38,129 nucleotides of DNA from a virus. The stretch covers positions 1 through 38,129 of the IMG/VR virus record IMGVR_UViG_3300023179_000257; one strand, written 5' to 3'. The translations under genes were made by a program, and so were the position numbers. Positions 6,076-33,103 of this stretch are shown one piece after another (within the stretch, counting starts at the first letter, position 1; each line of letters opens with the position of its first letter). Below the pieces are notes generated by a model that was not told the DNA's origin, made no database searches, and saw only the letters and a list, made by a program, of their open reading frames with translations.

Positions 6076-8405
6076 ACTTCAGTCTGTACTAGGGTTAGGG
6101 TTACAGTAATTATGGTTGTGGATCCTGATTTATTGGTCACAGCCATGGGAATTGAGGTGGTTGGCACAGTTTCATTGTTGAATCCAATGGCAGCTGGCGC
6201 TATAACAATAGTATTTGCTCCTGTGGTAATAACTTCGGCCACTACACCGGCATTTACGCCAGGGTCCTGAGTTTCTAAACGTGTGCTGTCGGCACTGCGA
6301 CTGGCGGTGTCGGTATAGATTCTGACCCAGCTGGCCGCACTGGTCTGTATCTTGTACAGAGCATAGCCCTTGTAGCCAGACAGATTGATGTTGCCTGTGG
6401 TTGTGTTGGCCAAACTTGCGGTGTTACCAGAAATCGTAGTACGGCTGGCCAAACCAATGGTGTTTGCTGGTGCTGCCACAGCACTGACCCATTGGCTGCT
6501 GTCGCCGTCGTTGTAGTAGAAAAACAGTGTACCAATGTTGCTGTTCCACCATAAGCTGCCGGCAGTGGGCGAACCTGGTGCTGCATCACTGATAGAAATT
6601 GTGTAGATAGGCCCAGTGCTACCAGTGGCACCAGCTGGTCCTGTTGAACCCACTGGTCCAGTAGCTCCTGTGCTGCCTATATTACCCTGAACGCCCTGAA
6701 CACCAGTGGCACCAGTGGCTCCCAATCCCGTAGCGCCAGGTACGCCTGTAGCACCTGTTGAACCTGTGTTGCCTTGTACACCAGTGGCGCCAGTTGGTCC
6801 TGTTGAACCCACTGGTCCAGTAGCTCCTGTGCTGCCTATATTACCCTGAACGCCCTGAACACCAGTGGCGCCAGTGGCTCCCAATCCCGTAGCGCCAGGT
6901 ATGCCTGTAGCACCTGTTGAACCTGTGTTGCCTTGTACACCAGTGGCACCAGTGGCTCCACCTGGTGATCCTGCAGCTCCTGTAGCTCCTGTGGCACCAA
7001 TGGGTCCCACCCCGCCTACTGGCTGGATCCATTGCGTGCTGTCACCATCATTGTAGTAGACAAACAGTTCACCGGTATCACTCTGTAACCATAATGATCC
7101 TATGCTGGATCCCGCAGGTTCACTGTTGGATATGGTGATTGATGCACTGGTTCCGCCAGCACCGGCACTACCCGCAACAAATGGCGCTCCGTTGGAAAAA
7201 TAATAACCCGATGCATAAACACGATTGGCAGTGACATTGCCCGAAAACACCGGATTGCTGTTGACACTAAATCTAATGCTTTGATAAGGGCTGGCGTTGG
7301 CATTGCTGGTAATAGTAATGTTGTTGCCGCTGTTGATGACCACATGATCTAGTCCAGTGGCTACCAATTGATCGCTGCCAGCCACATCCCAATACTTGAA
7401 TGTGCTGTTCATGGCTACCAGCACATTGCCGGCCCCTCTATTGGTCACAGCAAAGCCAGAATCGTCATCAAATTCCAGACTGGTAACATTGCTGACAGTG
7501 ACCAAAGGTTGACTGTTGGCATATAGACTACGTACAGTAAAACCTATAAATGATCCAGTGGCTCCTACAGGGCCTGTGGCTCCAGTAGCTCCTGCGCCAG
7601 TGGCTCCTACAGGGCCTGTGGCACCAGTTGATCCAATATCGCCTACAGGTCCAGTTGATCCGGTACTGCCTACGGGTCCGGTGCTGCCTACTGGTCCAGT
7701 TGATCCGGTACTGCCTACAGGGCCAGTTGATCCGGTACTGCCTACGGGTCCAGTTGATCCGGTACTGCCTACGGGTCCGGTACTGCCTACAGGTCCAGTT
7801 GATCCGGTGCTGCCTACAGGGCCTGTGGCTCCGGTACTGCCTACAGGGCCTGTGGCTCCAGTACTGCCCACAGGACCAAAGTCTCCAATGGCCAGCACGC
7901 CCACCATGCTGCCATGATATTGGCAAATATAGTATAAGGTGCTGGGTGCATTAGCAGGTACTGTAAAGGTTATCAGTCCGTTATCAGTACCATTATTGAC
8001 TATACCCGGATAGGCATCACCGGTGCCTGTGGTCTGCGAATTTTTAATCCAGAATGGATGTCCACCGGCCTGAATGGTAAAATAGTAGGTAAAACCTCTG
8101 ATCAGTGTCAGTGTGGGATTGTTAGATCCGTTGATTATATAGGCACTGGCACCTGCATTGGTAACTGTATAGGCAACACCACCTACAATTCCAGTGGCAC
8201 CTGTTGACCCCTGTGGCCCGGTACTGCCTGTGACTCCTGTGGCCCCAATGGGACCAGTACTGCCTGTAGGACCAGTGGCTCCGCGCAGAGCTGCTACACT
8301 GGTAATGGCTGTTAGTACAGTATTGCTGTTAAGATTGTCAGTGGTCAGTACCTGCGAATTGGCAGTGTTATCTAGACCTCTAAGATCAAACTTTTTAATT
8401 GTCAT
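6072..8405 (-). CDS. Collagen-like tail fibre with embedded cupredoxin-like domain
   Basis: 777 residues. A short N-terminal region ([20 protein letters not shown]) is followed by Gly-X-Thr collagen-like repeats (about 41-73). A beta domain (about 76-174) has His116 in GGHPFW and Cys161, His164 and Met167 in [16 protein letters not shown], the C-X2-H-X2-M spacing of amicyanin-type blue-copper sites. Further collagen-like blocks flank a beta domain with [19 protein letters not shown] near residue 340, which is almost copied from the 2198-residue fibre. Two modules of the SLW-(N/Q)S-(D/N)xGxLFxYYNDGDSxQW type follow, and a jelly-roll-like C-terminal end (about 660-777). Start: ATG at 8405 right after the preceding gene's TGA, with AAGG a few bases upstream. 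It is coupled by ATGA overlap to the subtilase gene. Fibre assignment is inferred from collagen repeats and operon position. Metal binding is predicted, not shown. Confidence 0.88.
6621..6938 (-). repeat. 159-bp tandem duplication in collagen segment
   Basis: Two adjacent copies of a 159-bp unit (53 codons, in frame) start at 6621 and 6780 and differ at only a few third-codon-type positions; a third partial copy begins at 6939. Recent in-frame expansion of the collagen-like stalk of the 777-residue fibre. Confidence 0.85.
7267..7430 (-). repeat. Copy 1 of a 164-bp near-identical segment shared by two fibres
   Basis: Inside the 777-residue fibre, encoding the [19 protein letters not shown] beta domain. 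It matches 11993-12156 at all but about four bases, while the flanking sequence is much more diverged. Confidence 0.9.
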
Positions 8406-8409
8406 TTAA

Positions 8410-11400
8410 TCAAACCTTAACATAACTTGACTGTAACTTGACAGTGTTAGCCAAACCTGTGCCTGTGCCGCGAAATCTAACCTGTCCTCCAACTATATCT
8501 GTCGTAAACTGCATAATCGCTGTGTTACCTGTATATATGGTCGCATAGGTAACCAACTGCGATGTTATAGAATTATGCACAATCATTGCTTCTGTGGCCT
8601 GGTATTCTGTGGCCGAACTCACAGAAACCACATACTTGGCTGTTCTATACAAACTGGTGCTGAATGTATCTAGTGTTACTGCCACATTGCCAACTGCAAT
8701 GCCCGGCGGGTCAGCTACAATGGCATCACCTAGGGTATTGTTGAAACTCTGTGCTACAATTTCTGCATTGGCATCGGGCACCGTGGTAAAAGTCAGCTGT
8801 GCACCGCTGGTGGTAAAATCCGTGCCAGGAATCTGATAGACACCATCAACAAACACAATGGTACTGAGACTGCTTAGTGTTGTACCACTTAGAGTGAAGT
8901 TAGACTGTACACCATTACCCGTAAATGTGTCAACAAAACCATCTCTACTGGAATAATTACCAAAACTACGCACACCAATCACAGCACCAGAATCTGGTGC
9001 CGATGTAAATGACAATGTGGTGCCCGACACTGTATAGTTATTGGGTGTCAGCTGAATCACTGTGTCCACTGTTACCAGTAGATCTGTGGCTGCTACTGCA
9101 CTGGTTAAGGTAAAATTGGTCTGTGCACCGTTGCCGGTAAATGTCTGGTTAATAGTTGGCGTAACAATGCCGGTGGCTGTTACTGTAACTGTGACATTGC
9201 TGCCCACGGCATTGGCTGTGATGCCCGGTCCAACAAAATTAATAGCAGTTACCGCTGTGGTCAGTGCCAGACCTTCATCATAGACAGTGATATTGGCACT
9301 GGTTCCTGCTGGTCCAGTGCTACCAGTGACACCTGTGGCTCCTGCTGGTCCAGTAGCACCTGTGGCACCGTCTAGTCCGTTAGCACCAGCTGGTCCACTA
9401 GGCCCGGTACTACCAGTGACACCTGTGGCACCTATTGATCCTGCAGTACCGGCCGCACCTGTGGCTCCGGTGGCTCCCTGTGTAGCGGCTGGTCCTGGAT
9501 CACCAGCTGGACCCTGTGGTCCTGTGGCTCCTGTGGCACCATTGATACCGGCTATGCCCTGTGTGCCGGTAGCTCCTGTTGGGCCGGTAGCTCCTGCTCC
9601 GGTAGCACCTATAGGGCCTGTGGCACCAGTTGATCCAATTGGCCCTGTGGCACCTGTTGGGCCTGTGGATCCCAATGGACCCGTGGCCCCTTGTGTCCCT
9701 GCTGACCCAGTGGCCCCTTGTGGTCCAGTAATGCCCTGAGCACCCGAAAGATCAGACACATAGCTGTAGACTGCACCATTCCATAGGTACAATCTGGAGT
9801 TTTCTGGATCCGAATTGTAGTTACCATTGTCAATTATGGCAAACTGTCCGGCCACAATAGCAGTTGGGCTGGTATCTGCAGTAAGTGCTGCCACACTGGC
9901 ATAGGTCTTGGCTATGCTAAAGCCCAGACCGGTTGGACCAGTAGCGCCTGTGGGTCCAGTAGCGCCTGTAGGCCCGGTGTTTAGATATGGAGTACCGTTG
10001 GCATAGAAATAATAGTTGCTGTATATGGCACTGTTGGCTGTGATAATGTTGGCTGTGATATTACCAGTGCTGGTCAGAGCACCTACTGTCACAAAGTCAT
10101 TGGCACTGAGTAAACTACTGGATCCACCAACACCAACCCAGGCATTGCCCAGATAGACGCTGAGTATGGCATTATCAGTATCTAGCCATAGCTGTCCGTT
10201 GACAGCTGAGTTGGGCGCAGCATTGCTGACCTGAACATTAGCGGTACCGCCGCCTATGACGCCGGTACTGATAGCATGTTGTACAACAATCTCACTGTTG
10301 GCTGCTGGTGCTGGACTAAATGAGATCCAGCTGGCATTGGCACTAAAATTTACACCAGGAACCTGATAGATACCATCTACGTGTACAACCAATTGGCTAA
10401 CTGAACTGATATTGCCATTGAAATTAAAATTGCCGGTGGTGCCATCGCCTATAAACACATTGGCAAAGGCTTCGGTCTCAACTTCCAATCTATAGGTATT
10501 GTTGACTATGGTTACATTGCCGGCACCGCTTAGATCTACATCATTGACCCAGTTTGTTCCATTGTATTTTAGTATTTCCCCAGCAACAACATTGCTGATA
10601 ACCACATCAGTTAGATCATTCAGACTGCTGACATTGCTGCTACCGCCACCGCCGCCCACAAACGGTGTGCCATTGGCATAATAGTAGTTGTTGGTATATA
10701 CTGCACCAGCATAGACATTGCCTTGTATACCTGCACCACCTGCTATCTGTAGGGCGCCAGATGTGGTACTGGTACTGATGCTAGTGTTAGTTGTAACTAT
10801 ACGTAGGTTGGTAGTACCAGTAAATGCACCTGTGGCACCCGCAGCACCTGTGGCACCGGCTGGACCAGTAGCTCCTACAGCACCAGTGGCTCCGCCAGGG
10901 TTACCAGCTGGTCCCTGTGGCCCAGTTGCACCTGTGCTACCTATGGGTCCAGTGATACCAGTGGCACCACCAGGATCGCCAGGGTCGCCTTTGATACCTG
11001 TGGCACCTGTGCTACCAGTGGGACCAGTTGCACCGCCGGGGCTACCCGGATTGCCCGAAGGCCCTGTGGCTCCTGTGGCACCATTGGATCCTGCAGCACC
11101 TGGACTGCCCGGGGTACCAGGATCGCCGTTGGAACCGGAAGGTCCTGTGGCTCCAGTGGCTCCTATGTCACCCGGATCCCCAGGGGTACCGCTAACACCT
11201 GTGGCACCTGTGGCACCACCTGGATCACCAGCTGGGCCAGTAGCACCTGTGGCACCCGAAACACCAGTGGCACCACCTGGAGTACCCGGCGAACCTTGCG
11301 GACCTGTGGCTCCGGTGGCTCCTAGGCCTGTGGCACCCTGTACACCAGTGGCACCTTGATTGCCTGTTAATCCGGTGGCACCTTGTGCACCTGCAGGACC

Positions 11401-14400
11401 TGTACTGCCAATTGACCCAGCTATGCCAGTGGCACCAGTAGCGCCTATGGGACCTGTGCTGCCACTAGCTCCACGGATACCGGTAGATCCTGCTGCGCCC
11501 GGTGTTCCAGGACTGCCGGTGGCTCCAGGACTGCCGGTAGCTCCGGTTATGCCTGTAAGTCCTAGTCCTCCTGTGGCACCCGTGGCTCCTGTGCCGCCTG
11601 GTCCTGTGGCACCCGTGGCGCCTTGTGGACCCACATTGCCCTGTGCGCCTGGAGTAGTTGAACTGATATCTAGCCAAAATGTATCATATTGATTGTTGGT
11701 ATAGATATAGAGTACATCATTGTCGGTGTTGTACCAGTAGTCTCCGGTCATGTTACCAGCTGGTGCACTATTAGATACAGTAATCTGGGCCGGCCCGGTT
11801 GAACCAGTGGCTCCAGTTAGCCCGGTAGCACCAGTGCTGCCTTGAGGTCCTGTAGCGCCCATAACGCCGGTAGCACCTGTGACGCCTGTAGCACCAGTGG
11901 CTCCAGCAAATGGCAGTCCATTGGCCGTTAGATAACTGTCGGTATAGATTGCTCCCACATAGACATTGGCAAATGTGGGATTGGCCACAGTGCTAAATCT
12001 AATGCTTTGATAAGGACTGGCGTTGGCATTGCTGGTAATTACAATGTTGTTGCCGCTGTTGATGACCACATGATCTAGTCCAGTGGCTACCAATTGATCG
12101 CTGCCAGCCACATCCCAATACTTGAATGTGCTGTTCATGGCTACCAGCACATTGCCAGATCCACGATTGCTGATCTCAAACCCACTGTCTTCGTCAAATT
12201 CCAAAGCAGTGACATTGGTCACTGTCACATGCGGCTGCAGGTTACCTATGTGCAGACTACGTACAGTGATTCCTGTGATCAATGGTTGGCCATTGGCATT
12301 AAAATAGTTATTGGCGCTGATATTGCCAGTGGTAATGGTATTGGCGCTGATATTGCCAGTGGTAATGGTATTGGCGCTGATACTGGCAATTATGGCACTG
12401 TTGACAGTGATAGTGCCGGTGATAATGGTATTGGCCCGTATATTGGCCACACCCGAATCTAGTAATGCTCTGGCATCAACATTGGTATAACTGGTAAACG
12501 GCTGTCCATTGGCTGTATAATAGTTGTCGGTATAGATGGATCCGGTGTAGAGATTTCCACTGATACCTGCGCCACCTATGACCTGAAATGCTCCACTATT
12601 GGTACTGCTGCTGCCTATATTGCCATCAACTATTAGTGTTGCAGTATTACCGGTAAAAACTCCAGTAGCACCGGTACTGCCTATGGGACCTGTAGAACCC
12701 TGTGGACCTGTGGCTCCTGTGCTACCAGTGTCACCACGATCACCAGTACGTGCAAATGTAATAACTATATCTTGATTGTCGGCAAAACTAACAGCACTGC
12801 CGCTGACCCAGGCACTGTTGATAGTAAAAAACCCAGACTGCTCTACCACATTACTGACTGTAAATAGAGCAAAATCATTGGCATTAAGTTTGTCGCTTAC
12901 ACGATAATGTCCTTTTATCAGACTGGAACTGTCGTTGATGGCACGTAGAAATACCTGTATGTCAAATGGACCATCTTGTTCATCGTCGATAATCAGCTGC
13001 GACGCTGTGACCACATTGGCCGTATTAAAACGTAATCTGCCAGGACCTGGATCTGTTATGCCTATATTGGCATCAAACGTATAGTCGAAGCTGGCGCCAC
13101 CAAATACGCCCTGTGGTCCTGTACTACCTTGAATACCAGTGGATCCCACAGGTCCAGTAGCACCAGTGCTGCCCTGTATACCCCGAACCCCTGTGGCACC
13201 TGTGGCACCTGGACCTGTGGCACCCACAGGTCCTATGTTACCTTGAATGCCAGTGGCACCCACAGGTCCTATGTTACCTTGAACGCCAGTGGCACCCACA
13301 GGTCCTATGTTACCTTGAACGCCAGTGGCACCTGTGGCTCCAGCACCAGTAGCACCTACAGGTCCAGTGGCTCCTGTAGATCCTGTAGATCCTGTGGCTC
13401 CAGCACCAGTGGCGCCTATAGGTCCAGTGGCACCAGTAGCTCCTGTAGATCCCGTGGCTCCTGCAAGGCCAGTGGCTCCGGTGGCTCCTCCTGGATCACC
13501 AGCTGGACCTTGTGCACCGGCAAAACCGGTGGCACCCACAGGTCCTGTGGCTCCAGTAGCACCTAGATCTCCAGTCAGTCCCTGTACACCTGCCACACCA
13601 GTGGCACCAGTGCTGCCTATTGATCCTGTGAGACCAGCAGCGCCTGTGGCACCAGTGCTGCCAATTTGCCCAATACCAGGAATACCCTGTGGGCCGGTGG
13701 CACCTGTGCTGCCTATATCGCCGGGCAGTCCAGGAGTTCCTGAAATACCAGTGGAACCAGTACTGCCCGGACTACCTGTAGGACCCTGTGGACCGGTGGC
13801 TCCAGTGCTGCCTAATTCTCCTATGCCAGCTGGTCCCTGTGGCCCTGTGGCACCAGTGGATCCATCTATACCAGTCAGCCCTGTGCTGCCTGTGGGGCCA
13901 GTGGCGCCGGTGCTGCCTGCTGATCCTGCAGGCCCAGCTGCACCTGTGGCACCTGTGGACCCTGTGGCTCCAACTCCAGGAACACCCTGTGGCCCAGTGG
14001 CACCAGTGGATCCATCTATACCAGTCAGCCCTGTGCTGCCTGTGGGGCCAGTGGCGCCGGTACTACCTGCCGATCCTGCAGGCCCAGCTGCACCTGTGGC
14101 TCCGGTACTGCCCGCACTACCCGCTGCACCGGTCAGACCAGATGCACCAGTGGCTCCGGTCAGACCTTGTACGCCCAATGCACCAGTGGCTCCAATGGGT
14201 CCAGTGGCGCCAACGGGTCCTAGCCCACCAGTGGTGCCTGTGGCACCAGTTAGCCCTGTGGCACCAGTCAGTCCCGGTGCACCTGTGGCACCAGCATTGG
14301 CATAGGCAGCGCCATTGCTGAAAAAAATCTGATTTGTATAAATACTACCGGCATAGATATTGCCTTGTATGCCTAGACCACCGGCTACAGTAACAGCGCC

Positions 14401-15006
14401 AGTGATGGTACTGGTAGCAGCAGTGGTACCGCTGACCACAATGTTACCAACAGCAAAAGTACCCGGAGTTCCTGTGACCTGTCCAGCAGCCACTGTGGCA
14501 TTGGTCAGATAGACCAACTGTTGGGTCTGATTGTCCCATCCTAGAAATGCACGATTATCTGAACCTTTGTAGTAGTGTATCAGTAGACCCAGATCTTGAC
14601 CATCATCTACCGACAGTGCACCACCACCAGCACCGGTGTGTATGTCAAACAATGCATTGGTCACATAGGTATTGTTGCTGGCCACAGTGGTTGTGTTACC
14701 AAGTACAGCCAGATTGCCTGTGACAGTAAGATTGATGGCACTGAGATTGGCCTGTAGGCCAATACTGGTAATGTTTGGCTGTGCCGCTGTAGTCAGTGTG
14801 CCCGATAGGCTAGTAGCAAATAGATTTAGAGCATGTACGTTGCCCTGTACGCCAACACCTCCACGAACTTGCAACAGTCCAGATGTGGTACTGGTACTGA
14901 TTAGGTTACCAGTTAATGTTAAAGGTGTGCCCAGTACAGTATTGGTAACATTACTAGCGGCAGCTAGATTGTTCAGTACCGCCGGATGTCTAATCAAACG
15001 AATCAT
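8410..15006 (-). CDS. Giant collagen-like tail fibre protein (2198 aa)
   Basis: Residues 1-240 form a beta-rich head with [20 protein letters not shown]-type modules and [13 protein letters not shown]. Then come three long collagen-like blocks of GATGPQG/GSTGATG triplets at roughly 240-640, 1110-1400 and 1680-1905. Between them are globular beta modules: the SG(A/L)xQ(I/V)xGGxGIxGNxY...YYxANGxPF module occurs at least four times, and a DTFTGNGxQxNFTL...VDGxYQxPGxDF module occurs three times, including twice near the C-terminus. The [19 protein letters not shown] domain is shared with the 777-residue fibre. Triplets use mostly Gly-(Ala/Ser/Pro)-Thr, as in other phage collagens, which form trimeric stalks. 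The ATG is 7 bases past the stop of the 118-residue gene. Likely a long trimeric fibre; I cannot say whether it is a side-tail or whisker fibre. Confidence 0.9.
11993..12156 (-). repeat. Copy 2 of a 164-bp near-identical segment shared by two fibres
   Basis: Inside the 2198-residue fibre. Compared with copy 1 it has one synonymous serine-codon change and one Thr-to-Val codon change (three bases). Confidence 0.9.
12310..12369 (-). repeat. 30-bp tandem repeat
   Basis: Two exact 30-bp units (10 residues, [10 protein letters not shown]) plus a diverged third, within a beta region of the 2198-residue fibre. Confidence 0.85.
13219..13326 (-). repeat. 36-bp tandem repeat, three units
   Basis: Three 36-bp units starting at 13219, 13255 and 13291, encoding [12 protein letters not shown]-type collagen triplets in the 2198-residue fibre; nearly identical. 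Confidence 0.85.
13835..14100 (-). repeat. 150-bp period duplication in collagen segment
   Basis: Copies of 116 bp at 13835-13950 and 13985-14100, offset by 150 bp (50 codons), differing at about four positions. In-frame stalk duplication in the 2198-residue fibre. Confidence 0.85.
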
Positions 15007-16832: not shown

Positions 16833-19800
16833 CTATCCTCCTCTAATCAACCAGGTAACTGGGAATCTCAGACCCGATCTTGGATAACAGACATGGCTAG
16901 TGTCAAAATAAATCCTATAGTTCCAATAGTCTGTGCCTACTATTTGAATGGCCTCTGCTGTTACATACTTAGCTGCAACCACTGCTGCTGATTGCTGTGA
17001 CACAAAGGCCGCTGGACCGTAGGACCAGCTTCTCTGATAAAAAACAAATGGCAACTGGCTGGGATAGTTGGGTCGATCACCACCACGACCCCCATCGGCA
17101 TACATACCAATGTAAGTTGATGCTGTGGTCTGCTGATCCAATAACAGACTTTCATGTAGGTAGTCTTGGTATAACTCAAAGTCAAATTTCACTGGAACCG
17201 GGCGATAATCTAGCTGTATTGGAACTAGCTGAACAAAAGATCCCACTGGGTCTAGTCTAACAATGTTAAAGTCATTTAGTATAATATGCTCTTGTACAAC
17301 CATTGGTGCCAACTCTGGATAAAACAACATGGGCCTATATAATTCAGGATCCAGGTCCTGAGGTATAAAATTGTGCAGCTGATATTCGTTGTCAATGGCA
17401 TTGACAATGAGACCATTGATTAGATATTCTGCTGTAAATTCTGGCAGTAGCTGAGTATTCTGTAGATATTCTGCTGTAAATTCTGGCAGTAGCTGAGTAT
17501 TCTGTAGATATTCTGTTGCGAACTCAATGAACACCTGTGTTTCAATCACAGGTTCTGCAGCAAATGCTGTATAAATTTGATTGATTTGTTCAAAATTGCT
17601 GTCAATAACCGACTCTATCATAGTAGCCGGTAACACATGCTCACTGACAAAATTAGGCTGTTCTATTACAGTGTAATAGATAAACAGACTGTCCTGTGCA
17701 GCAGTGAACAGACTTGGTACAAAAAGACTATCGGCCGAGCTGCTGTCAAAAAATTCAGTGACCTGAACAATTTCTGGTTCTGTGCCGGAACTAAAGACAG
17801 TTATCTGTACAGCACCAGGGTCTGCCTGTGTTAGATCAATGAACATTGTGGCCGGACCTAATAGGTTTTCTATGTTAAATGAGCTGAACAGTGTGGACTG
17901 GATGCTGGTTACCAATTGTAGAGGACCGGTAAATATCCCTGCTAGCTCCTTAAATTGAGGCTCGCTGCTGCTCTGTCTGATCAGAGTTGAAGTCTCTAGT
18001 AGTTGAGATTGAGGCATGCTATGATAGCTGACAGTTATAGGATCTGCTATTGTTGCCACTGGCATATGCCAGACAAATTGTCCCTGTTGTACAATCGGCA
18101 TGTCCATACTGATGGTCTGTGCAAAATTCCAGCTGGGGCTAGTAAAATGTTCGGCACGTATTTGATCCACTAGAATCAGAGCAAACTGTAGTCTGTTGCT
18201 GTCGAATTCCAGTCTAGAAGGCACAATTGTATAGGTACCTGGCAGACGTTCTACATCAATTTGATCCACCAGGAACCAGGTACCGTCATTGGGTACACCT
18301 TCACTGCTGATTGTATGGACAGATCCGGTCACTGCTGTGATCAATTGACTACCAAAAGTCTGTGACAGAGCCAGATGCGATCCAGTCCATTCACTGGCTA
18401 TGGTATTGACCAGAATTGTAGTATAACTGCCAACGAAATCGGTCAATATTTGTCTAGTGCCTGACCCAGCAATGCTAGATACCAATTCCTGGGCCAGACT
18501 GGTCAGAATCTGATCCGACTGGTCAACCAATTGACTGGCCAAATTGGCAGCTATATACCTGTTGGTGTCTATAATTGGTTCTAGATCCGGCTGGATTATT
18601 GTGGCAACATCAATGTCAGCAATACTAGAAATAATTTTATTTTCTATATTCCAAGATCCAATGTCCACATAAACATTGCCAGCATCTATTAGATCTTGGT
18701 ATATCTGATAGACAGTGACCGGCTGTTCTGAATAGGTCGGCACGGTCCATTGTAGTGCTAGATTTGACCCAGATGTGACTGTATTGGCCTGTCCTGACGC
18801 TAGACCATTAATAACCAATTCTACCCCTGCACCGGTGGCAAAAACCAATGCCGATGCAGGACCTGATGCCAGAATATTTGCAGTTCTATAGTAGGGCAAT
18901 CCTGGAGCCCAGTCATCAACATAACGCACAAATGGCTGCACCAGTGTTGGATAATCAAATCTGGCAAAAGTTGCATCTCCGGCTGTTCTGGTACGATAGA
19001 TCAGTGTACGCGGACCATTGATTACTATATCTCTAGTGTCAAATTTCCTAGCACTGGAAAACTGATTGACTACACTAATGGTATCGCCAGCCGACAGCTG
19101 ATAATAATTGCCCACTGTGAGATTGGCCACTGTGCCTGATATATTGGCCTGGAATATATAATCAAGTCCAGTATTGTTGTATTGACTTTTGTACAACACA
19201 GGTAGCATATAGAGTCCTGTGGTGGCAATGGTAATAGTAGAGTTGGCCAGGGTTTCTCTGGGATAATTGTTTTGTAGATTGATATCTGTAGGAATCGTAG
19301 AGATCGTGTTGGCCGGCGCAGTAGGCAAAGGCAACTGATAATCACCTATGCCCAACACACTGACACTGGGTCTTAGTGTAGAACCAAAAGGCACATAAAT
19401 GGTCAGCTGATCATTCTTGGCCAGATTCTGCGTGCCATCGTAAAATCCACCATTTAGATATAATCGGCCATAGTCTAGGCTAGCTCTGACATTGGCGAAA
19501 ATGGGAATTTCTTGATCTATATAGGCCACATAACCAAGTTCGGTAGGATCTAGAGTGCGTTCTATTTGAAATCTTGGAGTCCTTGGATTAAATCCTGAAT
19601 TGTCACTGCTAAAACTACCTGTTCCCAGATAGCGCCAGATGCCGTCGGTTGACTCACTGCCAAATAGTACACTAGTACCTGACGCAGTGGTCACTGGCAT
19701 TCTGGCATTGGGCTTGGTAATATCGCCGGCTGCAGGACCAATATTGGCTGTAGATGAGTGTGTGGCTCGATCATAATAGAGTTCTATGTACTGATAATTG

Positions 19801-22800
19801 CGTCCTGCATATAGACCAACCTCATAGCTGTAGGTAGGAGCTGGCACATTGGCCTTAAACAGCAGACTAGTAGCAGAACTGACAGTTGCTGTGTTGTTGA
19901 CCTCTACAAAATTACCAGACAACACCAGTGTTGTGGCACTGCCAATGGCAGGCACTGTTGAATCGGCAGTTAGTGTATGCAGTTCGTAGACCGCTGTGCC
20001 CGAAACCAATGGTATACTTGCAAAACTAATCGATGTTTTTTCTAGATTGATAACATCGGCATTGGACAGAGTCTGAGCAGCTGCCACATCAATATAGTAT
20101 TCGGTAAAGCTGGCTGAGGCCGTTTTTGGTGTAATTATACTGGTGCCTGAGTCAACTAGGTCAACAGATACCGACAATGGTACACTATACCCAGGATAGA
20201 TATTGGCCAGACTAAAAGTCACGGTTTCTGTGCCTTCTATCAGTGCATCACTATTGGTAACAAACAGTGCCGACATGGTGGATCCCACAGTAAATGTGCC
20301 TGTGGTTGATCCAGATACCAGATCGTTGGCATCAAATCCTGGCCCGATAAGACTATAGTTATAGCCCGAGCCTGCTGCCACATTAGTTGTGCTTAGACTA
20401 AATGCCACTGCATTGCCTTCCACCACTGTTGTGGCATTGGCTGTGAGAACAAATGTTTTGACCACTGTGCGACGCCCAACAATACTGGTAGATGTTAGAT
20501 TGGCACCAAAGATTGTTTGGTTTAGATAGACCTGATTATAGTCACTTAAATTGACCTGAATCGCAGTGTTGGCCACTACACTACTGATACTGGTTATTGT
20601 GTAGGCCTGTCTGACAATGCTGGCAGCTCCTATCTGTTTTACTCCACCAAATTTATAGATCCAGCTGCTGTCAACTGGGCCAGGACTGATGCCATCAACG
20701 ACCACAGTACCAGCAACTTGAGACAATACTGTATTACCGTTGATAATGGTGCTAGAATTGGCCAAGACCGTTGCAATTTTGGTGCCAGAAATACTGATAT
20801 TGGCGTATTTTGGCGGTGTTATGGAATCACTTACCAAAAAAGTATTGGTGGTAATATTGCTGCCGTAGGTTGTGGCAGTGTTGGTGTAGGAATATTTGCT
20901 CACTACCTGTGTGCTGACCACTATGCCATTACCACTCACATAGTCATTGACATTGACCAAATTTATATCATCAATGGGTATTTGATTATACGAACTGATT
21001 GATGTGACCACATTGGCCAGATTACCCAATGGGTAGTGCCTCATTGAGGTTCCTACCCAACGAATTCTATAGCCACGAAACTCCCCCAACAACTGCGGTT
21101 TTACATAGATTGTGGGCACTTCAGCACTGTCTAGCCGACCCTTTTTAATATTCATTGGATCGGTATTGTCTATGGGATAGTCCTGTAGTAGATCACCAGG
21201 TTCAACAAATATGGCATCAGTCAACAGATCTCCATACTGTTGATTGGCTGTATGTGTGGTGTAGGAATCAAATGTCAGATAACCATTGGTACTAACATTG
21301 ATATTAGAGTAGATTGAACCCCACATGTTGATAGTAAACCCAATGCTGTCTAGTATGGTAGTACCTTGATCGTAATTTCCTATGTCTGGCGGATCGTAGA
21401 TACCATATACTGGTGTTAGACGATGCAGTGCAGTGGTAGCTGTGTAGTGATCTAGTATACTAGAACTGGTCACCACGGTGGTAGTATAATCTATGGCAGT
21501 CTCGCCCAAAATAAAACTGTTGGTAAAAGTGCCAGATCTTATGGCTCTGTAACTGACTGAAAAATAATCTTGACTATTGACTATGCCATTCATTATACCA
21601 TTGGTCCAACAGACCAAATTTGGACCCGGAATGGGACTAATAGGTGAGCCCAGCATCAATGGTTGCACTGGTCTTGTGCCAATATGATTTACGGGTCCAG
21701 TTCTATCTTCTACTCTAAACGGAATGACCTTATAAATTCCCGGCGTATCCAGAGTGTCAAAATACTGCAGGGCATGAATGCCAATTATATCATTGCCTAA
21801 TACACTAACCAGTGTGACTCTACGAAAAAAATCATAGCGATTATACGTATTGGCAGCAGTAAATTGATAAACACTGTTGGTATCATGCCCAGTTACCCAG
21901 AGGCTGTTGTCAAACGCTCTACAGTAGGCAGGAACAAACTCAGGCGTGGTCCAGATGGTATAGGTTCCAGCACTGTTAAAAATCAATAGACGTTGTTGAT
22001 TACCTTCGGGCACTGCCACTGTATTGGTGCCCGGTACTTGATAGGGGTGTCCTAGAGCCGAACTTGAGTAGACCAGATTAAATGTGTTTGGCAAGTTCAT
22101 AATATAGACACGATGTGTTTTAGTGGTTACCAATATGGCACCATTGCCAAACGCAGCTACGTGCATTATGTCCTCGCCAGACAATGTGGCTGTAATAATA
22201 ATATTATAGTTGATATCAGTCACAAACAGACTATTAGATCCGGCTACAATAATGCTATTACCAACAACATCTAGTGCTTTGATAATAGGAAATAGGCCTG
22301 CACGTCGTCGTTTTCTAGCTAGGTTTTCAAAACTGCCTACTGTGGGTATGTCCTCGGTATAGGGCAAGTTATCTAGGTCCACAATATTGACCACCCTAGG
22401 GTCAAATTGATCACTGGACACATATTGATTGTCAAACCTGATTCGATACAACCGACCATCATTGGCCAAGATCAATAGATCTTGTGTATAGGTACCTATA
22501 GCAGAGTAATTTATTTTTCTGTAGTCGATGGGACCGGCCGGTAAACCAACCTCGGCTATGAACATGTATTGATCATAAAAATACACAGTCTGATTCCAAT
22601 GGTCCAGTACCACGTGCAGACTGTCTACATCTATTAGATCTCTATTCATTCCAGTGCTGGCATTGACATCATACCCAGTACTGTATCTAGATACCGTAAT
22701 ATGTTCCTCAGGATAGTTATACCAACGACGTTGTGCGTCGGCAGATTTAATTGTGGGATTGTAGTTATTTCGATTAACTACTGCAAAACTATTGTGTCTT

Positions 22801-23030
22801 GAATCTATGGTATAGGATATAAATTGATAATCAAGATATCCCGGTCCGGTGGTAACCGATGCCGATACCAAATTGCCCGGAAATACTGCAATTGGTCTGG
22901 CGGCAACTATAGATCCGTCTAGCCTAACAGTGACATTAGTTGATATATCAAGATTGTGTCTGGTGCTGGCAGTATAGCTGGTGTTGGCAGTACTACCAGG
23001 AATGCACGAGGAGACGCTGCTGAACATCAT
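16833..23030 (-). CDS. Giant multidomain virion structural protein (2065 aa)
   Basis: I do not recognise a single family over the full length. Residues about 150-470 contain repeated strand patterns (DLLILANDGRLYRIRFD, NSIIVAGSNSLFVTDI, NGAILVTTKTHRVYIMN, FDNSLWVTGHDTNSVYQF) that look like blades of a beta-propeller. Around 575-700 a segment with INVSTNGYLTFDSYT and GYRIRWVGTS resembles nidogen-like beta domains. At about 855-960 a Calx-beta-like domain ends in NSDALIEGTETVTFSLANIYPG. The last 400 residues are acidic/aromatic and include an exact 14-residue tandem repeat (LQNTQLLPEFTAEY) near residue 1850. Two adjacent ATGs follow GGGAG at the 5' end; the second has the better spacing. It precedes the 462-residue protein by 3 bases. 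Probably a tail, baseplate or fibre hub component; function inferred only from size and location. Confidence 0.8.
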   Translation of the reverse strand: MMFSSVSSCIPGSTANTSYTASTRHNLDISTNVTVRLDGSIVAARPIAVFPGNLVSASVTTGPGYLDYQFISYTIDSRHNSFAVVNRNNYNPTIKSADAQRRWYNYPEEHITVSRYSTGYDVNASTGMNRDLIDVDSLHVVLDHWNQTVYFYDQYMFIAEVGLPAGPIDYRKINYSAIGTYTQDLLILANDGRLYRIRFDNQYVSSDQFDPRVVNIVDLDNLPYTEDIPTVGSFENLARKRRRAGLFPIIKALDVVGNSIIVAGSNSLFVTDINYNIIITATLSGEDIMHVAAFGNGAILVTTKTHRVYIMNLPNTFNLVYSSSALGHPYQVPGTNTVAVPEGNQQRLLIFNSAGTYTIWTTPEFVPAYCRAFDNSLWVTGHDTNSVYQFTAANTYNRYDFFRRVTLVSVLGNDIIGIHALQYFDTLDTPGIYKVIPFRVEDRTGPVNHIGTRPVQPLMLGSPISPIPGPNLVCWTNGIMNGIVNSQDYFSVSYRAIRSGTFTNSFILGETAIDYTTTVVTSSSILDHYTATTALHRLTPVYGIYDPPDIGNYDQGTTILDSIGFTINMWGSIYSNINVSTNGYLTFDSYTTHTANQQYGDLLTDAIFVEPGDLLQDYPIDNTDPMNIKKGRLDSAEVPTIYVKPQLLGEFRGYRIRWVGTSMRHYPLGNLANVVTSISSYNQIPIDDINLVNVNDYVSGNGIVVSTQVVSKYSYTNTATTYGSNITTNTFLVSDSITPPKYANISISGTKIATVLANSSTIINGNTVLSQVAGTVVVDGISPGPVDSSWIYKFGGVKQIGAASIVRQAYTITSISSVVANTAIQVNLSDYNQVYLNQTIFGANLTSTSIVGRRTVVKTFVLTANATTVVEGNAVAFSLSTTNVAAGSGYNYSLIGPGFDANDLVSGSTTGTFTVGSTMSALFVTNSDALIEGTETVTFSLANIYPGYSVPLSVSVDLVDSGTSIITPKTASASFTEYYIDVAAAQTLSNADVINLEKTSISFASIPLVSGTAVYELHTLTADSTVPAIGSATTLVLSGNFVEVNNTATVSSATSLLFKANVPAPTYSYEVGLYAGRNYQYIELYYDRATHSSTANIGPAAGDITKPNARMPVTTASGTSVLFGSESTDGIWRYLGTGSFSSDNSGFNPRTPRFQIERTLDPTELGYVAYIDQEIPIFANVRASLDYGRLYLNGGFYDGTQNLAKNDQLTIYVPFGSTLRPSVSVLGIGDYQLPLPTAPANTISTIPTDINLQNNYPRETLANSTITIATTGLYMLPVLYKSQYNNTGLDYIFQANISGTVANLTVGNYYQLSAGDTISVVNQFSSARKFDTRDIVINGPRTLIYRTRTAGDATFARFDYPTLVQPFVRYVDDWAPGLPYYRTANILASGPASALVFATGAGVELVINGLASGQANTVTSGSNLALQWTVPTYSEQPVTVYQIYQDLIDAGNVYVDIGSWNIENKIISSIADIDVATIIQPDLEPIIDTNRYIAANLASQLVDQSDQILTSLAQELVSSIAGSGTRQILTDFVGSYTTILVNTIASEWTGSHLALSQTFGSQLITAVTGSVHTISSEGVPNDGTWFLVDQIDVERLPGTYTIVPSRLEFDSNRLQFALILVDQIRAEHFTSPSWNFAQTISMDMPIVQQGQFVWHMPVATIADPITVSYHSMPQSQLLETSTLIRQSSSEPQFKELAGIFTGPLQLVTSIQSTLFSSFNIENLLGPATMFIDLTQADPGAVQITVFSSGTEPEIVQVTEFFDSSSADSLFVPSLFTAAQDSLFIYYTVIEQPNFVSEHVLPATMIESVIDSNFEQINQIYTAFAAEPVIETQVFIEFATEYLQNTQLLPEFTAEYLQNTQLLPEFTAEYLINGLIVNAIDNEYQLHNFIPQDLDPELYRPMLFYPELAPMVVQEHIILNDFNIVRLDPVGSFVQLVPIQLDYRPVPVKFDFELYQDYLHESLLLDQQTTASTYIGMYADGGRGGDRPNYPSQLPFVFYQRSWSYGPAAFVSQQSAAVVAAKYVTAEAIQIVGTDYWNYRIYFDTSHVCYPRSGLRFPVTWLIRGG
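17421..17504 (-). repeat. 42-bp exact tandem repeat
   Basis: Two identical 42-bp units (17421-17462, 17463-17504) plus the start of a third, encoding LQNTQLLPEFTAEY twice in the C-terminal part of the 2065-residue protein. Confidence 0.95.
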
Positions 23031-28857: not shown

Positions 28858-29277
28858 TTAGGCCACGTTACCGGTAATGTCCACATTGCCTGTGAATACA
28901 CTGGTATTACCAGCCTCTTCAACTTGAATATAGGTGTCTGTGGTAGATACACTAAAGTTCCAGGGACCGGTAAAAATCACTGTTCCTGCGGTGTTGACTG
29001 CTGTGATCTTGCGACCAGAAATTTTTCCAACATAGCCTAATGTGCCATCGTCGGCCTTGACCTTGATAGTCATTTCGCCTGCAGCCAGACTACCGTCAGC
29101 TTTGGCAACTAATCTGCAGCTGGCTGTGGTTCCTGCGGCATCTACACAGATAAATGTCTTGCTGCCACGTTGACGCTGAATAGCACCATCCACACTGGCA
29201 GTGCCATTGTGAAAACGCACACGAATATTGTCGTTGTTATCAAAACCAAAAAATTTCTTATTAATCGGACGTCCCAT
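28858..29277 (-). CDS. Small virion protein (139 aa), GRPINKKFFG family
   Basis: I start it at the ATG at 29277, because AAGGAG lies about 9 bases upstream and the resulting N-terminus (MGRPINKKFFGFDNNDN) matches the 'GRPxNKKYFG' opening of small structural proteins in marine T4-like phages. An in-frame ATG 16 codons earlier would place the ribosome site inside the gene. The rest is beta-rich (VDGAIQRQRGSKTFICVD, LGYVGKISGRKITAVN). It has its own perfect TATAAATA promoter 68 bases upstream and a strong terminator just downstream, so it is probably a monocistronic late gene, suggesting high copy number. Decoration or minor tail protein would fit; neither is proven. Confidence 0.8.
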   Translation of the reverse strand: MGRPINKKFFGFDNNDNIRVRFHNGTASVDGAIQRQRGSKTFICVDAAGTTASCRLVAKADGSLAAGEMTIKVKADDGTLGYVGKISGRKITAVNTAGTVIFTGPWNFSVSTTDTYIQVEEAGNTSVFTGNVDITGNVA

Positions 29278-29345: not shown

Positions 29346-29353
29346 TATTTATA
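29346..29353 (-). promoter_or_regulatory. Perfect T4-type late promoter for the 139-aa virion gene
   Basis: TATAAATA exact match read on the minus strand, 68 bases upstream of the chosen ATG at 29277. It forms a divergent pair with the plus-strand element. Confidence 0.75.
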
Positions 29354-29362
29354 CTCTGCAGG

Positions 29363-29370
29363 TATAAATA
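29363..29370 (+). promoter_or_regulatory. Perfect T4-type late promoter for the lipoprotein gene
   Basis: TATAAATA exact match, 28 bases before the lipoprotein ATG, leaving room for a leader with AAGAGGT. It is back to back with a matching element on the other strand, 9 bases apart. Confidence 0.75.
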
Positions 29371-29398
29371 ACTGATACAACCCAAAAGAGGTAATCCT

Positions 29399-30340
29399 AT
29401 GCGTTCAATTATTATCATTTCAATAGCAGTAGCAATGCTACTAACAGGTTGCAGTACCACAGACTACAAGATGTATTCAGAAACACAGCAGAAGATCGCT
29501 CAAGCATACGCTGTGGCCGAAACTGCCAGATACAATGCTCTAGCCGAAATTGCCAAAAATGGTGACAGTGCTGCCAAAGTAGCGGCTGTGTTAAGCATAC
29601 AAATGGGCGGTGGTGGTAATAATCAACGACCACAACAGCAGGTATCTGCACCTGAGACTCTGGCAGATTCCGCCCTCAAATGGACCAGCGTACTATTACC
29701 TACTTTTGCTCAATTTTATACTGTAAATCGCAACAGTGCTGTGGCCATGCGGCAAAGCGACAATCAAGCAGCCGTCGCTATCAGCACAAACAGAGCATTT
29801 ACTGACATGAACGCAGCAGGGCATACAGCCAATCAAACAATTGCCAACAGTGGCTTCTCGGCTATTAATCAAACTTCCTCTGCAGGGTTCGCAGCTCTGG
29901 GTTCGCAGAGCACAGCAGCATTTAACAGTCTGCAGGGCATGAGCATTGCAGGACTCAATGCACTTAAGGACAGCAACAGTGCCGGACTTACAGCAGCCAC
30001 CAATCTAGGCACAGCCGGTATCAATGGTGTTGCCAGCACTGCTGGTACCGGATTCACAGCAGCCACCAATCTAGGCACAGCCGGTATCAATGGTGTTAGC
30101 ACAGCCGCCGGCGCAGGAATCACTGCCATAACCAGTATCAATGCTGCCAATAACACAACTTTGCAGACATTAGGCAGTCAGGCAGCTGGTAGCTTGACCG
30201 CCTTGATTAATGCCAACAAAGACATGGTCAACACAGCCACTAGTAAACTAACAGGCACCACTACCACTACCACTACCACTACCACCAATACAACTAATAC
30301 AACTAATACTACTAGTAATAATACCGGTGGTGGCGGTTAG
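29399..30340 (+). CDS. Repeat-rich phage lipoprotein (313 aa), only plus-strand gene
   Basis: The N-terminus is a signal peptide with a lipobox: MRSIIIISIAVAMLLTGC, with Cys18 as the predicted lipidation site, so the mature protein should be anchored to a host membrane. Residues 20-70 are helical and charged. Residues about 130-270 are Ala/Ser/Asn/Gly/Thr-rich degenerate repeats, including an exact AATNLGTAGINGV duplication with a 22-residue period. The C-terminus is a Thr/Asn run (ten Thr in a row, then NTT repeats) ending in GGGG. A perfect TATAAATA lies 28 bases before the ATG and AAGAGGT 7 bases before it, so it is expressed late. The stop interlocks with that of the endonuclease gene. 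Possible roles: superinfection exclusion, envelope change or lysis; no family recognised. Confidence 0.82.
   Translation: MRSIIIISIAVAMLLTGCSTTDYKMYSETQQKIAQAYAVAETARYNALAEIAKNGDSAAKVAAVLSIQMGGGGNNQRPQQQVSAPETLADSALKWTSVLLPTFAQFYTVNRNSAVAMRQSDNQAAVAISTNRAFTDMNAAGHTANQTIANSGFSAINQTSSAGFAALGSQSTAAFNSLQGMSIAGLNALKDSNSAGLTAATNLGTAGINGVASTAGTGFTAATNLGTAGINGVSTAAGAGITAITSINAANNTTLQTLGSQAAGSLTALINANKDMVNTATSKLTGTTTTTTTTTTNTTNTTNTTSNNTGGGG
29990..30097 (+). repeat. 66-bp period repeat in lipoprotein gene
   Basis: A 42-bp stretch at 29990-30031 is repeated exactly at 30056-30097 (22-codon period), encoding TAATNLGTAGINGV twice. Confidence 0.92.
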
Positions 30341-31827
30341 GCTGAGAATTTATTAACATAGCAGCCAACGCCACAGTCCCAGATCCTGTACATTTTCTTT
30401 TCGCGCATGATCTCGTGTTCGGATAAATTAGGATCGGCACCATTCTTGACCAGGCTGCTCTTTGTGAACTTGGACCTGTGATAGCGTTGTACGAAATCTG
30501 TATAGCTGTAGCCGACCCCATTGGCTTTGACTTGCTCAAATCCCAGTCTTTGATATAGATTACCAGTACCCCAGCGCAGATCGCAGTAGCTTATGATATT
30601 TTTAGGGTCGTGCTGTTTGACAAATGCCGATAACAGTCGACCAGCACCGCCTACTACTGTGCCTATACTTGCATATCTGATTAATTCGTATTCATAATGC
30701 CGATTATACCTGGGTCGGCCAAATGTCATTACAGCAACTAATTTACCTTCAAAAAAACACCCATATGCATATCGACATTGACTGTGTCCTTGTATGTGGT
30801 GTTGCTCGGTGAATTCTCTTGCCAATGCAATTGCAATGGGGTTTACTAGACACTTTCTAGCATATATTTTCGACGTTGCTCCTAGTATGGCACGTAATCT
30901 GTTTTCCACGATTGGCCTGCGATGAGTCCATTCGTCTTCGAAAATTGTAATTAATCTAAGACCTTGTTGTTTGCACAATTTTAATTTATTTGCATGATAA
31001 TTAGGATCAGGCTGATTGTATTCACTATGCCAAAATAGTCCACAATATTCAATCGCTAGTTTTTTACTAGGAACAACAATGTCTAATTCATAAGGTGCGA
31101 TTATTTTTTTATTACTCTGTTCGGCATCAGGGACTAATCCAGCAACAAATTCATAGACAGCGGTTTCTTGCCCGCTGACATATTCAGGCTTATACGGATT
31201 GCACACACGACATTTGGGTATATGGCCGTTATCTATATAATCTCTAAATTGATTACTGCATTCCTGGCATTCAAATTCATAATATACTTGATTACTGACA
31301 CCGGTATATAGAGATTCTGGCGTTAGGAATCTGATGTTGAATCGCTGAAATTTTTTATTTAATTTTTCATAACTGCTCAATGATTTTCTTTTGGGCTTTC
31401 GAACAGCAGCATAATAGTCTGCATGACGTTGTCGAGCTGCTGCTGTTTGTCCAACATTTAATACTCCATATCTTTCAAGATTGGTTGACCTTCTTAGCTC
31501 TAGAGACTGTTGTCGTTGATCCGCGGTTTGGTTTAGTTTAGCAGATCTAACATTCGCCGATACCTGCAGTCTGGCACATTCACATTTGCCGGCAGGACCG
31601 CAGTTTCTATATCCGGTACTAATATCCGTGAATTTTTTTATTTGCCCATGCACACATCTATTATCTTTTTTATTTAATGCACTGTATATTTTTTCTGCAA
31701 AATTGTCAGTGTCTACCAAACAATTATCATTGACCCATTCTGCTAGATCAGGTCTTTTGGCTATCATACGACTGTAGTGCCTGGGATTGGCCTCTATTAA
31801 TTCACCTATTTGTGTTTGCTTGTCCAT
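30337..31827 (-). CDS. Homing-endonuclease-like protein (Vsr/EDxHD-type nuclease)
   Basis: 496 residues. N-terminal part: a Cys cluster (C58, C76, C82, C84) and an NLERYGVLNVGQ motif of the kind repeated in phage homing nucleases. Middle: a zinc ribbon with Cys187, Cys190, Cys206 and Cys209. Then the nuclease core: Glu221 in GQETAVYEF, Asp249 in YELDIVVPSKKLAIEY, and GLFWHSE (His267), with KQQGLRLITIFEDEW. This is the layout of Vsr-like, PD-(D/E)XK-related EDxHD homing endonucleases. The C-terminal domain (EQHHIQGHSQCRYAYG, VVGGAGRLLSAF, ISYCDLRWGTGNLYQRLGF) is the GNAT-like module often fused to them. It sits just past the capsid gene terminator. No Shine-Dalgarno is visible. A free-standing selfish gene is the best reading; its cleavage site is unknown. 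Confidence 0.85.
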   Translation of the reverse strand: MDKQTQIGELIEANPRHYSRMIAKRPDLAEWVNDNCLVDTDNFAEKIYSALNKKDNRCVHGQIKKFTDISTGYRNCGPAGKCECARLQVSANVRSAKLNQTADQRQQSLELRRSTNLERYGVLNVGQTAAARQRHADYYAAVRKPKRKSLSSYEKLNKKFQRFNIRFLTPESLYTGVSNQVYYEFECQECSNQFRDYIDNGHIPKCRVCNPYKPEYVSGQETAVYEFVAGLVPDAEQSNKKIIAPYELDIVVPSKKLAIEYCGLFWHSEYNQPDPNYHANKLKLCKQQGLRLITIFEDEWTHRRPIVENRLRAILGATSKIYARKCLVNPIAIALAREFTEQHHIQGHSQCRYAYGCFFEGKLVAVMTFGRPRYNRHYEYELIRYASIGTVVGGAGRLLSAFVKQHDPKNIISYCDLRWGTGNLYQRLGFEQVKANGVGYSYTDFVQRYHRSKFTKSSLVKNGADPNLSEHEIMREKKMYRIWDCGVGCYVNKFSA

Positions 31828-31927: not shown

Positions 31928-33103
31928 TTAAGAGAACGTTAGATTGCTAACACTGATTTCGCCGAGATAATCTGCGGCGTTACCGAGCGAGCTGGCAGTA
32001 TTTGTCAACTCAACATATCCATAACGTGTCATAAAACCAACCACCGGTTCGAAGGTTGCTGGATCTAGAACAACACCGCTGCTCATCAATGGCACATATG
32101 GGCAATAGAATGCAGCAGCATCAGCTTCGCTAGTGCCTTTGTAGCCAATCAGCACGTCAGTACCTGCTTGGGCATAGGTGTCAACATAGATCTTCATAGC
32201 ACCATTGAGTGTACCAACAAATTTATTGTTAGTAGGAGCTTCAAAGGTACCTTCTGTGGTACGAGCAAACGCACTGGTAGTAGCACTCTGTAGCACGGTA
32301 AGAGCCTCGGCACTGACCACTGCCCAGTTAGCAGCACCGCGACGTGTGCGTTGAGCAATCAGATTTGCACCACGATTGATTTGAACAGCCAATGCGGCAT
32401 GTTCGTCACCAACAAATGTAGCGGTACCACTCACTGTGGCCTGATTGAATTGGCCGATGTTAGGAGCCAGGCTACGCAAGCTAGCTAGAATTTCTTGATC
32501 AATTTCAACTGTGATTTCTTGAGCTAGAGCAGCCATGATTTCTGCTTCAACATCTAGACCATGCATGGCTTGTGCATCTTGTGCAGCTTCGAATGTCCAA
32601 CGTGCGCTTAGTTTGCGAGTTTTGGCTTCAACAACCTGCTTCATGATTTGCACGTTCATGCGGCGACCAGGTACACCTTCAAGAGTGGCTGTGCTGTCTG
32701 CACGGCTGGTAGTCAAGTTACCGCTGTAGGCAGTGGCAATACGAAACGGGCTTAGAGCTTCGTCACCAGCTGTGGTACCATCAGTGGTAATGGTTGCAGC
32801 AGCAGTATCAGCATAACGAACACGCAGTGTATGAATCTGCGCTACTGGACCAGTCATTGGCTGAACACCAACAATCTCGTTGGCAATAACTGTGGGCATT
32901 ACACGACGAATCACTGGCAGAATCACACGGTTTAGTGTGCTGATGTTACCGGACTGTGTGGCACCCGATGTGGCATTTTCCATGAGACTTCTACGAGTAT
33001 TTTCTAGAATCACACCCATGGTAGTACGACGATTACCTTGCAAGCCTTCTAACAGGGCATCTTTAGTTTCGCCCCAACGGCTTTCTAATAGTTCTTGTGT
33101 CAT
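31928..33103 (-). CDS. gp23: Major capsid protein (T4 gp23-like)
   Basis: 391 residues, clearly T4 gp23-like: LNRVILPVIRRVMPTVIANEIVGVQPMTGPVAQIHTLRVRY near the N-terminus, then the E-loop region, KLSARWTFEAAQDAQAMHGLDVEAEI and FYCPYVPLMSSGVVLDPATFEP at the C-terminus. It is shorter than T4 gp23 (521 residues), as in many environmental T4-like phages that lack insertions. Several L/I-x-E sites suitable for the gp21 protease lie in the first 45 residues (LLE 5-7, LLE 17-19, ILE 32-34, LME 40-42). Cleavage after Glu42 would remove a propeptide and expose NATSGATQ. ATG at 33103 has an AAAGGAAAG ribosome site. A stem-loop terminator follows. It forms the hexameric shell. Confidence 0.97.
   Translation of the reverse strand: MTQELLESRWGETKDALLEGLQGNRRTTMGVILENTRRSLMENATSGATQSGNISTLNRVILPVIRRVMPTVIANEIVGVQPMTGPVAQIHTLRVRYADTAAATITTDGTTAGDEALSPFRIATAYSGNLTTSRADSTATLEGVPGRRMNVQIMKQVVEAKTRKLSARWTFEAAQDAQAMHGLDVEAEIMAALAQEITVEIDQEILASLRSLAPNIGQFNQATVSGTATFVGDEHAALAVQINRGANLIAQRTRRGAANWAVVSAEALTVLQSATTSAFARTTEGTFEAPTNNKFVGTLNGAMKIYVDTYAQAGTDVLIGYKGTSEADAAAFYCPYVPLMSSGVVLDPATFEPVVGFMTRYGYVELTNTASSLGNAADYLGEISVSNLTFS

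Follow-up and report, generated by a model that had tools for sequence, protein, structure and literature searches.

A reversed lipoprotein gene beside gp23 of a T4-like virus: a probable long member of a phage family that usually stands third in the spanin cassette

What does a phage do with a single lipoprotein gene that runs against all its neighbours? The question arises from a 38,129-bp metagenomic fragment of a T4-like virus with T4-type gp20 and gp23, here called the window. The gene is the only one on the plus strand; every other substantial gene of the contig lies on the minus strand. A sequence-only reading had correctly noticed this opposition and had spoken of a "38-kb late region", a description that is not proven for the whole, the contig being a fragment. 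The phage is likely affiliated with Far-T4 (PMC4360716). Our answer, which we hold with a probability of roughly 0.52, is that the protein is a long member of an outer-membrane lipoprotein family usually encoded third in the spanin cassette, and most likely aids the spanins in lysis. The relevant features are:

28858..29277, minus strand: neighbour (MGRPIN... protein), a flank conserved in the reversed arrangement
29346..29353, minus strand: divergent TATAAATA box of the neighbouring minus-strand gene
29363..29370, plus strand: T4-type late promoter of the lipoprotein gene, a perfect TATAAATA box; (C/T)ATAAATA kept there in relatives
29387..29391, plus strand: ribosome-binding site AGAGG, from the sequence
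29399..30340, plus strand: lipoprotein gene, 313 aa, supported by ATG start, relatives and dN/dS
29399..29452, plus strand: signal peptide with lipidated Cys18 (LLTGC) and Ser at +2, outer membrane predicted; from the sequence, Cys and lipobox being kept in the alignment
29453..29803, plus strand: conserved domain, residues 19-135; residues 19 to about 85 homologous to the small third spanin-cassette lipoprotein
29744..30253, plus strand: predicted long helix, residues 116-285, with 11-residue repeats from about 140 to 285
29979..30110, plus strand: two tandem 66-bp (22-residue) copies, 85% identical
30254..30337, plus strand: low-complexity Thr/Asn/Gly tail, residues about 287-313, from sequence and model
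31928..33103, minus strand: gp23 major capsid protein, likewise a conserved flank

Between gp23 and the lipoprotein gene lies a homing-endonuclease-like gene (30337-31827, minus strand; phrog_3339, E 4e-102, with a weak Mom-like region), the stop of which overlaps that of the lipoprotein gene by 4 nt. This insertion is found in the window only; in relatives the two genes are directly convergent. The window also holds two very large, structural-looking ORFs, probably of the tail-fibre type (8410-15006, 2198 aa, and 16833-23030, 2065 aa, both on the minus strand).

The protein begins with a type II signal peptide, its lipobox LLTG-C occupying residues 14-18 of 313. A serine at position +2 predicts, by the sorting rule, the outer membrane; lipidation and transport to that membrane are thus predicted. 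The combination of lipobox and outer-membrane sorting characterizes Rz1-like o-spanins, and the window protein has both, the sorting as a prediction. A C-terminal transmembrane segment, as demanded of a u-spanin, is absent from the window protein, which ends in the Thr/Asn/Gly tail. The lipobox, the predicted membrane anchoring and the low-complexity tail had all been recognized from the sequence alone. The "22-residue exact repeat" claimed there is indeed a tandem unit of 66 bp, but the copies are 85% identical in DNA and only 14 residues (TAATNLGTAGINGV) are repeated exactly. The pair lies within a more extended 11-residue periodicity that covers residues 140 to 285 or so; the identity at lag 11 was matched by 3 of 5000 shuffles for the window protein and by none of 5000 for the relative L002. 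AlphaFold2 builds residues 116-285 as a single helix, most of 180-285 having a pLDDT above 90. The pTM is 0.31, so only the local helicity of the window protein is credible. At 0.15 nm per residue, the roughly 170 residues of this predicted rod would measure about 25 nm, which is near the depth of the periplasm and might allow the rod to span it. The model of the short form was poor (pTM 0.19) and was left out of the analysis.

The dN/dS values range from 0.02 to 0.18 in the domain and from 0.06 to 0.45 in the repeats, which mostly evolve faster. In view of the low values in the domain, the lipoprotein gene is real and under purifying selection.

Late timing, as already proposed, is supported by the promoter motifs. 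The TATAAATA box sits 36 bp ahead of the ATG and predicts a late transcript start near 29377, seven of the eight NATAAATA sites in the window are found no more than 150 bp upstream of a gene on the same strand, and the reversed-type relatives keep (C/T)ATAAATA at the equivalent position. Three of these relatives (L006, L118 and L122) have, in addition, a near-consensus sigma70 promoter, TTGAC(A/C)-N17-TATCAT, overlapping the late box CATAAATA. The pattern suggests dual early and late expression, and some early or host-driven transcription is therefore possible in these three.

To whom is the protein related? A first scan of genome contigs gave no match. Iterated searches then retrieved at least 193 relatives from aquatic viral contigs, as compared to two matches in 85,000 cellular species genomes, both in metagenome-assembled genomes. 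A cellular housekeeping lipoprotein, the outcome that would have refuted the sequence-only reading, is thereby excluded. Neither Pfam nor PHROGs has a family that covers the window protein, in line with the first impression of an unfamiliar sequence, and the family is also absent from NCBIfam. Nor did tblastn with the window, long, short and small forms find a match in INPHARED (50,697 isolate phage records), a search that does recover spanins and endolysins. The deep sampling is one of viral contigs, and the frequencies given here describe the closest relatives among the matches listed. Sequence comparison delimits a phage-specific family without prior description, united by its conserved N-terminal domain. 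The hallmarks of this family are the lipobox, a helix of the type Y..Y....K.A.A.A.TARY.ALAEIAK.GD..AKVAAV and the stretch P.....ALKW..LLP...Q...N....MRQSDN; each record holds one strong copy. Most members have about 185-205 residues and the short ones lack the long helix; the T4-like members reach about 290-355 residues by added 11-residue repeats and a Thr-rich tail. Long members (e.g., L006, L129 and L119) carry one of two interchangeable C-terminal ends, either of the NTGGG type or CPAGQTFTGG.CQ with two Cys, and both ends occur across both genomic arrangements described below. Matches to DUF6491, like those to Cor in relatives, concern mainly the signal peptide, and a sequence search of the PDB yielded TAL-effector repeats, a designed repeat protein and T4 spackle (E 0.06), which were judged to reflect chance or the signal peptide.

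In T4-like contigs the gene is met in two main arrangements. In the first, it is a solitary reversed gene with gp23 on one side and the MGRPIN protein on the other; this holds for the window, L002, L003, L006, L115, L116, L118, L119 and L122, and for L117 as far as the contig reaches. In the second, it runs in the same direction as an i-spanin-like and an o-spanin-like gene and follows them immediately, in many cases with a GH19 endolysin upstream (long forms in L120, L121, L123, L124, L125, L128-L131 and L245). In six cases of the second arrangement, the gene begins within the last four bases of the o-spanin gene (ATGA). Spanins were assigned by PHROGs 456, 8821, 2536 and 312, the endolysin by phrog_181; the o-spanin of L078 weakly matches annotated spanins of Burkholderia phages. 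The 400-kb genome G009, whose gp23 is 77% identical to that of the window, has the second arrangement, and G012 shows a third location. Homologues in the same place as in the window, as had been anticipated, thus exist in one group of close relatives and not elsewhere in the family. The idea of a fixed neighbour of gp23 had to be given up: no member lies beside gp23 in L132-L211, the 80 gp23 relatives among the matches listed, some of whose contigs end too soon. On the tree of the mature domain, the location of the gene changed at least three times with respect to the reversed arrangement, and the window groups with L129 and L245 of the spanin-linked arrangement, at identities of up to 82%. 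Yet in all members of the reversed type the signal peptide begins with MRSII, a hint of recombination into an already resident locus.

The spanin-linked position is not restricted to long forms. Among the matches listed, the gene next after the o-spanin is a family member in 61 of 80 loci (37 of 52 after dereplication), as judged by a profile built partly from those same loci; by lipobox pattern alone, the count is 60 of 80, as opposed to 3 of 359 other genes of the o-spanin loci. The 19 loci of the 80 listed that have no third lipoprotein imply that the third gene is not essential. Most third lipoproteins are small (73-92 aa), with P(K)KNW(L/F)G(L/F) or a similar motif at their C-terminus. 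With signal peptides removed, hhalign relates small and long forms with a probability of 97.9% (E 4e-13; column-shuffled controls below 1%), and hmmsearch with the mature domain reaches E values down to 8.8e-16, the window protein scoring 6e-13. The latter is thus homologous to the third lipoprotein; its gene lies beside gp23 and not directly behind i-spanin and o-spanin. In short, the window protein has the domain of the family, not its usual place. Three large genomes with a gp23 75-78% identical to that of the window (G029, G030 and G031, 352-525 kb) harbour the small form in the spanin cassette. In G013 (188.8 kb; L233:1091-1492, minus strand) the slot behind the o-spanin is occupied by a non-homologous lipoprotein of 133 aa, with a 4-nt overlap.

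Outside the T4-like contigs, an endolysin gene lies no more than 2.6 kb downstream of the short form in 30 of 35 loci after dereplication, versus 88 of 216 for other genes there, a linkage moderately above the local control. Many of these loci have GTA-type holins and a pair of conserved membrane proteins between lipoprotein and endolysin. The membrane-protein pair (phrog_32327 and phrog_31287; L034:5693-6142 and 6139-6756, with equivalents) recurs between lipoprotein and holin or endolysin in many non-T4 freshwater phages and could possibly stand in for spanins.

Since the smaller relatives usually sit right behind two spanin genes, the window lipoprotein probably serves as an additional component of the lysis machinery, with its gene relocated in this virus. 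The "lysis aid" proposed from the sequence, as one form of a change to the host envelope, fits the presence of spanin, holin and endolysin genes beside most relatives, and it is this gene linkage that points to a role in lysis. In the family's usual setting of i-spanin, o-spanin and lipoprotein, the protein would be produced late, acquire its lipid at Cys18 and end up on the inner face of the outer membrane, where it most likely helps the spanins to disrupt this membrane at the end of infection, be it as a third subunit, a scaffold or a timing factor. In the lineage of the window, the gene would have been relocated between gp23 and the next virion gene and would use its own late promoter. The window record yields no spanin match, in particular no i-spanin gene overlapping or adjoining the lipoprotein gene; in relatives, the part of the o-spanin falls to a separate gene. 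No spanin gene lies on the window or on any other reversed-type contig, all of which are fragments, and coupling to spanins can therefore not be shown in the window phage. Moreover, the cassettes already contain a normal spanin pair, which leaves room for a different function of the third gene. Like Rz1 in the two-component system of lambda (Rz/Rz1), the family provides an outer-membrane lipoprotein of a late lysis cassette and is, in relatives, translationally coupled to the i-/o-spanin pair. It is, however, a third gene besides a recognizable o-spanin, to which no homology was detected, and the window gene is alone and reversed and its product much longer. With the u-spanin of T1 (gp11), the window protein has in common the N-terminal lipid anchor and a length sufficient to cross the periplasm; it differs in having the Thr/Asn/Gly tail in place of the transmembrane segment.

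An alternative that we consider rather unlikely is superinfection exclusion: the lipoprotein would block an outer-membrane receptor from the periplasmic side, as Llp of T5 or Cor do, and would shield released phage from debris. Llp and Cor, too, are phage-made outer-membrane lipoproteins facing the periplasm; the accessory distribution of the family, the sigma70-like TTGAC-N17-TATCAT promoter of the three relatives and weak PHROG Cor matches in relatives (best E 0.0027) would agree. These matches, however, fall mostly within the first 25-55 residues, mainly the signal peptide, and the window protein has neither a phrog_1119 match nor a Cor/Llp profile match beyond the signal peptide. Llp and Cor have about 60-80 residues, and Llp is disulphide-bonded, is encoded beside its receptor-binding gene (PMC9586334) and is early, going by the title of reference 22 in that paper; the mature window protein is far longer, has no second Cys, belongs to a family linked to spanins and other lysis genes instead of a receptor-binding protein, and has a late promoter motif. 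The same domain is also carried by widely differing phages, for which a common receptor is unlikely. Exclusion, already suggested from the sequence alone, did not gain specific support.

Still less probable is an envelope tether or stabilizer akin to Lpp or OprI, which would brace the outer membrane or compete with host tethers and so tune lysis time or guard against lysis from without. The alanine-zipper lipoproteins are likewise helical and Ala-rich, weak NCBIfam Ala-zipper matches were obtained (18.6 and 19.7 bits), and the predicted rod of about 25 nm would suit the task. Yet the 18.6 bits of the window protein are far under the 43-bit cut-off of the family, the lysine needed at the C-terminus for linkage to peptidoglycan is missing, the repeats are of 11 residues and not heptads, and short members have no rod at all.

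Lambda bor adjoins Rz/Rz1, and by analogy the gene might be mere cargo, a moron without a role in lysis that was inserted by chance at operon ends. Its sporadic presence, three locations (beside gp23, in the spanin cassette and in L225) and several moves would be compatible with this; the same slot in most o-spanin loci, the ATGA coupling and the strong purifying selection render it very unlikely. That the protein is a virion or tail component, or a decoy displayed on released debris as once imagined, is highly improbable: the window gene lies among structural genes, but this location is not conserved across the family, the protein has a lipobox, no structural homologue was found, and nothing supports the decoy.

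If the lysis reading is correct, a wider one may be put forward tentatively: many large T4-like freshwater phages might use three-part spanin systems, in which a dedicated lipoprotein would act at the outer membrane besides i- and o-spanin and would in some have grown into a periplasm-crossing rod of about 25 nm that can be expressed away from the cassette. In the survey of spanins, the systems have one or two components, lipoprotein genes are rare in phages, and 31 genomes have a lipoprotein without a linked i-spanin (PMC6139136). Our literature search found no paper describing a third spanin-cassette lipoprotein. A third lipoprotein, conserved and coupled, in the majority of the aquatic o-spanin loci sampled, belonging to no named family and seen in no isolate, would be an unrecognized part of Gram-negative lysis or, alternatively, an exclusion factor that travels widely with lysis operons.
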